This document shows, piece by piece, positions 1 through 686 of a stretch of 64,000 nucleotides of DNA. Every line of letters starts with the position of its first letter. Positions within the stretch are counted from its first letter, which is position 1. Origin of the DNA: Bacteroidota bacterium (GTDB taxonomy: Bacteria; Bacteroidota; Bacteroidia; Flavobacteriales; Flavobacteriaceae); the NCBI GenBank assembly GCA_027620655.1, contig JAQCDS010000001.1, positions 310,001-374,000 of the forward strand, written 5' to 3'. Under the pieces are notes generated by a model. The model was not told the origin of the DNA. It saw only the letters and a list, made by a program, of their open reading frames with translations, and ran no database searches. The position numbers were made by a program, and so were the translations under genes.

Positions 1-686
1 CATTTGTTGCTTCAGATAGTATTTTGATTCCTGTACAATGTGAATATTTAGCAATGGAAGGTCTAAATAAATTACTCCAAACGATAAAAGATATAAAAGC
101 AAATTTTAATAATAATCTAGAAATAGAAGGCCTTTTGATTACAATGTATGATCAAAGACTTAAACATAACAATGACATCATAAAACAACTTAAAAATTAT
201 TTTGAGGACATGGTTTTTAAAACCATAATCAAAAGAAATATAAGCCTGAGTGAAGCCCCCAGTTTTGGCACCAATATTTTTGAATATAAAATTGAAAGTG
301 AAGGGTCAAACAACTACCTCAATCTATCTCGTGAAATCATAACAAACCACAATACAATGGGAAAAACCGACATAATACTTGGAAAAACAATCCAACAAGT
401 TTTGGAAAACAATGAAACAATAGCGTTAGAAAAATCTAAGCACAAAAAACATTTACATCATTTTGAACCTTTTGATATCAAAAAGAAAAACTACAACAAG
501 CTTAAAGGTATGCACAAAAAGGAAATTATAAATAGCCTTGGACTTGTATACAACGACATTTACTCTGATATTTGGATGTACCGTGTACCAGGAAGAGCAA
601 CTGTATTTAGAAAAAATTATCTTTATTTATATTTTGTTGATAATCGTGTAAAAACTTTTGAACTAAGGCGATTTAAACGAAGTTAA
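1..686 (+). CDS. ParA-like ATPase with C-terminal BamE/SmpA-like domain (5' partial)
   Basis: The reading frame is open from base 3, so the start and Walker A motif lie before the window. The visible N-terminal part, to about base 353, is the C-terminal third of a ParA/Soj ATPase: it has the IPVQCEYLAMEGL, TMYDQR, MVFKTII-RN and LSEAPS-FG blocks and aligns along its length with the complete ParA encoded next at 783. ParA proteins normally end there. This one continues for about 110 residues: a basic, His-rich linker (bases 354-497), then a compact block at 498-668 with GM-x3-EII-x2-LG, a W-x-Y strand and an L-x-L-x-F-x4-V hairpin. That order matches the SmpA/OmlA/BamE fold, normally found in outer-membrane lipoproteins. 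The ParA assignment is secure; the BamE-like assignment is by eye. It is probably a cytoplasmic positioning ATPase with an added interaction domain. Confidence 0.8.
   Translation, partial: FVASDSILIPVQCEYLAMEGLNKLLQTIKDIKANFNNNLEIEGLLITMYDQRLKHNNDIIKQLKNYFEDMVFKTIIKRNISLSEAPSFGTNIFEYKIESEGSNNYLNLSREIITNHNTMGKTDIILGKTIQQVLENNETIALEKSKHKKHLHHFEPFDIKKKNYNKLKGMHKKEIINSLGLVYNDIYSDIWMYRVPGRATVFRKNYLYLYFVDNRVKTFELRRFKRS

Follow-up and report, generated by a model that had tools for sequence, protein, structure and literature searches.

Partners of A/D ATPases consist of a disordered, charged N-terminal peptide and a cargo-binding remainder (PMC10241942). In the ParB of M. xanthus, the peptide that contacts ParA is defined by L11, R13, L15, L18 and I19, i.e. 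four hydrophobic positions and a central basic residue (PMC12462528). The R13-sensing cluster of canonical ParB-responsive ParAs is made of Y81, E82, D110 and E117. The M. xanthus Y81L variant binds ParB normally and loses most of the stimulation, and D110R/E117R is bound by ParB without being stimulated by ParB clamps (PMC12462528). Many ParA/MinD ATPases remain orphans because their partners are too diverse to be found (PMC10241942).

The ATPase described here, ParA2, is encoded at the left edge of the window, the 64 000-nucleotide stretch of Flavobacteriaceae DNA that was analysed. It shares with chromosomal ParA/Soj proteins the deviant Walker A motif, the catalytic Asp/Asn set, the whole ATPase fold (8ray, 6iub, 1wcv) and an adjoining parAB pair, but it has a C-terminal extension of 110 residues, and the Y81/D110/E117 cluster and R238 (M. 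xanthus numbering) are replaced. The extension contains a motif that matches the ParA-binding motif of ParB in spacing and residue classes (L-G-[KR]-x-[LI]-x2-[IV]-[LIM]; PMC12462528); like that motif, it is predicted to form a short helix within disordered sequence. In ParA2, however, it is located at the C-terminus of a ParA and not at the N-terminus of a ParB, and the CTPase and parS-binding domains of ParB are absent from the tail. The order of the tail, peptide then domain, is that of A/D-ATPase partners; McdA/McdB and the other A/D ATPase pairs (PMC10241942) also combine a peptide with a cargo-type domain, but ParA2 is a single polypeptide. The last domain resembles BamE/SmpA (PF04355) in its predicted a-a-b-b-b fold and motif order, and differs in being cytoplasmic, fused to an ATPase, devoid of signal peptide and lipobox, and below the Pfam cut-off. 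BLIP-like proteins (3d4e, BLIP) belong to the same structural neighbourhood, but they are secreted inhibitors and no sequence link to them was found. Literature searches returned no ParA-BamE fusion, which is weak evidence of absence given that they were partly unspecific and that preprints were outside their scope. ParA2 is a variant of ParA with an ATPase, a ParB-like peptide and a BamE-like domain in one chain.

The parA2 gene and its neighbours

The 3' part of parA2 occupies positions 1 to 686 of the window (+ strand), with a frame open from 3 to 686 that matches the C-terminal part of ParA, as originally predicted. The full gene was retrieved 5' of the window on the same contig (L004:3595-4686, window positions -405 to 686). 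Its first 405 bases precede the window, and it forms one unbroken frame of 363 aa, without a stop or a frameshift. It is bordered by a methylmalonyl-CoA mutase gene on one side and, on the other, by the housekeeping parA (ParA1; 783 to 1565, + strand) and then parB (1549 to 2448, + strand). The ParA-binding motif at the N-terminus of this ParB, LGRGLSALL (1576 to 1602, + strand), served for comparison with the ParA2 linker. TAnnTTTG is a promoter type of Bacteroidota. Such a box (TATTTTTG) lies between parA2 and parA1 at positions 751-758 (L004:4751), and one was found upstream of parA1 at three of the five loci checked (L014 and L015 have it, L007 and L028 do not); parA1 may have its own promoter, judging from this box.

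The ATPase core

The C-terminal part of the ATPase core (residues ~136-247) is encoded at positions 3 to 338 (+ strand). Full-length ParA2 was matched by Pfam AAA_31 (E 6.5e-63), and PDB ParA 8ray was matched at E 1.4e-64 using as query the 75%-identical relative L015. The ParA/Soj signature is present: a deviant Walker A motif KGGVGKT(T), a Walker A' motif D-x-D-P-Q-x-N and the Walker B Asp. None of the 24 fused proteins considered below departs from K31, K36, D58, D60, N64 or D145 (M. xanthus numbering), and ParA1 has the same residues. One ParA2 from a metagenome assembly (L014:3260-4354) has an altered P-loop, KVGVGKT for KGGVGKT.

The residues by which ParA senses the basic residue of ParB were not kept in ParA2. 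Y81 is replaced by L, V, I, K or Q in 24/24 fused proteins. D110 is mostly K, R or N, the Asp being retained only in L043 and L041. At E117 an N prevails, with D, Q, A or G in a few proteins and a gap in L043 and L041. The ParB-adjacent ParA1 proteins, in contrast, conserve Y81, D110, E117 and R238 in 20 cases out of 20, with a Gln at position 82. The hydrophobic ParB-binding pocket (V116, L150, L152, L155) aligns in ParA2 mostly with I/V, L/F, Y/L and L/I. R238, needed for non-specific DNA binding in M. xanthus, is S, K or T in every fused protein and Ser in the window copy; where a Lys is present it may act in DNA binding, or other basic residues may compensate. From its residues, ParA2 seems to have escaped control by ParB. 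Because the basic-residue sensing site is lost, ParA2 may respond differently to its own peptide, possibly binding it without being stimulated, or the peptide may act on ParA1.

The linker and its ParB-like motif

A His/Lys-rich linker, described in the original prediction, was found at positions 339 to 491 (+ strand); it is a variable segment in the alignments. It contains a feature which that prediction had overlooked, LGKTIQQVL (residues 262-270, positions 378 to 404, + strand), resembling in sequence the peptide by which ParB switches ParA on. It was recognized by its pattern, by a ParB profile and by the motif definition of PMC12462528.

The pattern L-x-[KR]-x-[LI]-x2-[LIV]-[LIM] in a disordered segment was searched in the linkers and is present in the window copy. 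Of the 24 linkers, 18 carry it, those of the unlinked lineages L026 and L042 among them, against 0.23 expected from shuffles. This count involves related sequences and a pattern picked after being seen. For this reason, the linkers were also scored with a profile built from ParBs alone (56 sources). With this profile, the L042 linker scored above all 64 254 background 9-mers and L029 ranked in the top five. Such scores are expected 0.02-0.03 times per linker for L018 and L026, and about 0.065 times for the window motif, which alone is not significant. The L025, L031, L027, L043 and L041 linkers scored like background.

Conservation of the motif is uneven. L-G-K has disappeared from part of the Flavivirga clade, where the hydrophobic residues are retained, the basic residue is absent from some copies, the second Gly of the ParB motif is not conserved in ParA2 linkers, and the G283/G498 lineage has no motif. 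Nevertheless, the motif persists in distant lineages (L042, L026, L029 and the window) in which the remaining linker sequence has not been maintained. A short, low-confidence helix was predicted at residues 266-271 of L015 (AF2), as expected for a peptide that would fold upon binding.

The BamE-like C-terminal domain

The last domain (residues ~300-363) is encoded at positions 492 to 683 (+ strand). The residue pattern that had drawn attention to it was exact: GMHKKEIINSLG (GM-x3-EII-x2-LG), WMY and YLYLYFVDNRV (L-x-L-x-F-x4-V). It is not due to chance, since fused proteins from many genera have kept this C-terminal domain. The tail of the window copy was modelled with AF2 (m6c811f933bd6; 99 aa, 24 sequences, mean pLDDT 71), which gave the order helix-helix-strand-strand-strand. 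In a Foldseek search of the PDB with this model, ranks 1-4 were all BamE (E 0.03-0.3, probability 0.84-1.00). VIA-align also placed a BamE first (2km7, Z 6.4), with BLIP-like structures (3d4e, Z 5.9; 2g2w, Z 4.7) and BtiO (9uu1, Z 5.4) as other neighbours. The scores of both searches are moderate, although their leading matches agree. In the domain alignment, PF04355 (BamE) matched 4 of 17 members, at best with E 0.0028 and short of the curated Pfam threshold; no other Pfam family matched two or more members, and the tail of the window copy gave no PF04355 match. The predicted BamE-like fold was thus recovered, and on the model the tail has a BamE-like fold without being a BamE.

A link to the outer membrane or BAM found no support. 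The domain is part of a soluble cytoplasmic protein in which no signal or transmembrane segment was detected, the tail itself has no strongly hydrophobic segment, and relatives are also encoded by small separate genes without a signal, four of which likewise have no strongly hydrophobic segment. Nothing in the sequence points to export of the tail, and a true BamE lipoprotein was rejected as there is neither signal peptide nor lipobox. Matches of the tail to NCBIfam YabA and Pfam PMI1 were at chance level, as was the only match of the tail profile to sequences of solved structures. No tail match was obtained in the phage and plasmid collections, and an origin there was rejected.

Distribution, selection and origin of the fusion

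When 199 Flavobacteriaceae genomes were searched with the tail only, eight gave matches, five of them in long ParA frames. Scanning GTDB contigs turned up 24 loci: 19 with an intact fused gene, one with a fused gene in pieces (L022) and four with small separate proteins. In the full set, 24 distinct intact fused proteins were collected from independent assemblies, named Flavivirga isolates among them. The fusion is genuine; a sequencing error joining a separate gene was rejected since many assemblies, those of isolates among them, contain the fused frame. With a wider profile, the fused form was found in 10 of 397 family genomes and a close separate form in four; outside Flavobacteriaceae this profile gave weak matches only. 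The L022 gene (L022:3221-4282), from a metagenome-assembled Formosa sp., is in three open pieces and is either a pseudogene or an assembly error.

The proposed association with parAB held for most copies. Of the 24 intact proteins, 20 are encoded in the order mutase-parA2-parA-parB (the L019 contig ends before parA), and four copies are located elsewhere: L026 near an ABC-F gene, L042 near cydAB and argS, L043 and L041 near exbB/exbD-type genes. No partner gene recurs near these four copies.

Pairwise dN/dS values, from which dS-saturated pairs were excluded, were 0.03-0.12 for the ATPase core, about 0.07-0.20 for the BamE-like domain and 0.10-0.39 for the linker, which was mostly above its flanking domains (six pairs). 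These values show purifying selection on the core and the whole tail, and hence a fusion maintained by selection.

In the genomes searched, a second ParA accompanies the fusion, whereas most genomes without it have a single ParA, in agreement with the duplicated ParA that had been proposed. In the phylogeny, the fused ParAs lie on one side of a branch (support 87/49; recovered in 86% of the bootstrap trees). With the ParA1 of the family and one ParA1 of the same order (Flavobacteriales), they make up a starred set (100/98). ParA2 evolves faster than ParA1 in this tree. A single clade of fused ParAs is probable. A single duplication with gain of the tail, followed by losses and moves, would fit the tree, in which branches are long and support for a single origin is moderate.

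Separate BamE-like relatives

At locus L034, the same BamE-like domain is encoded by a separate gene whose end overlaps the start of a parA by ATGA. This pair is not merely a split fused gene, since the gene order is reversed; for membership of the L034 ParA in the fused clade, the AU p was 0.34. G677 has a distant BamE-like gene ~530 bp away from an orphan second ParA that lacks an adjoining parB; the related G094 has the same BamE-like neighbourhood and no ParA. L034 and G677 suggest a functional pairing of ParA with BamE-like proteins beyond the fusion. The linker motif is absent from the separate BamE-like genes.

Signal-transduction genes (TPR-LuxR, HisKA kinases, LytTR regulators, large sensor kinases) were found near the separate relatives at 7/7 loci inspected (L033:3432-3725, L034:3902-4204, L036:3962-4207, L037:3893-4177, L057:98-367, L161:8470-8775 and L162:7013-7540). 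In the two genus-g94 loci, the separate relative is adjoined by a DUF6876-like gene. More distant BamE-like C-termini occur in small proteins with N-terminal transmembrane helices (L075, L076, L077, L060, L064 and L068); these domains have the pattern LIGKTKxEVxxLLG...W.Y...L.I.F.N..V and are found inside and outside Flavobacteriaceae.

Possible functions of ParA2

Tentatively, and at somewhat less than even chances, ParA2 may be explained as a diverged chromosomal ParA paralogue in which the ATPase is joined to an adaptor-like module; with the same reserve, this module may be its own adaptor, composed of an activation peptide and a cargo- or partner-binding domain. ATP-bound ParA2 would dimerise. 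The peptide LGK-x-I-x2-I-L would dock as a short helix into the hydrophobic pocket at the ParA dimer interface, in cis or onto a neighbouring dimer, and would control hydrolysis. The BamE-like domain would bind the cargo or a partner. This is the division of labour of ParB or McdB between a peptide and a cargo domain, here in one polypeptide. The role of cargo or self-regulation module originally put forward for the tail is plausible, and the ParB-type motif of the linker adds support to it. The fuller scheme, a one-piece positioning system derived from a duplicated chromosomal ParA, with its ATPase, its own ParB-type peptide and a cytoplasmic BamE fold, which would either pattern a cargo or pass a signal to ParABS, is possible but somewhat more doubtful.

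The main rival to an adaptor acting in cis, itself unlikely, is regulation of the housekeeping ParABS system: the LGK peptide would mimic ParB on ParA1, or ParA2 and ParA1 would form mixed dimers, the BamE-like domain bringing another signal into ParABS. The 20 linked copies immediately precede parAB in the same orientation, which favours it. So does the sensing cluster, kept by ParA1 and lost by ParA2: a Lys-bearing peptide fits ParA1 better, and the M. xanthus variants altered at these positions bind ParB and are improperly stimulated (PMC12462528). However, four copies are unlinked from parAB, the TAnnTTTG boxes may give parA1 its own promoter, and the motif of some copies no longer has its basic residue. 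Less probable still is an orphan positioning ATPase with an incidental LGK similarity, in which the BamE-like domain alone would link to the cargo and the linker would be a flexible basic tether. The weakness or absence of the motif in part of the family and a BamE-like domain about as constrained as the ATPase agree with it, and the signal-transduction genes adjoining the separate relatives imply that the domain may have many partners; persistence of the motif in distant lineages whose linkers have otherwise diverged argues against it.

BLIP inhibits beta-lactamases, and BtiO is a T6SS immunity protein. Their presence with 3d4e among the structural neighbours raises the idea of an inhibitor or immunity-type module that would sequester an enzyme on a ParA2 scaffold. 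This is very improbable: BamE is the best and most frequent structural match, no toxin or target gene recurs near the parA2 copies examined, and likeness of fold does not show function. The idea that ParA2 is a decaying duplicate whose C-terminal extension arose by chance, or is an artefact of assembly, is largely refuted. The patchy distribution, the fragmented L022 gene and altered L014 P-loop (both from metagenome assemblies) and the faster evolution of ParA2 would agree with decay, but the core shows low dN/dS where measurable, its catalytic residues are invariant, and the same fusion is present in many independent assemblies, isolates included.

The carriers of ParA2 are some marine Flavobacteriaceae, in which this second ParA usually adjoins the chromosome-segregation genes. 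They offer a natural test of the recently mapped ParB-sensing site, since changes like Y81L and D110R have evolved in a ParA with its own peptide. If the tail is a partner fused in cis, it would show how such a partner is made, with an activation peptide and a BamE-like domain, and would give a sequence handle for free-standing partners.
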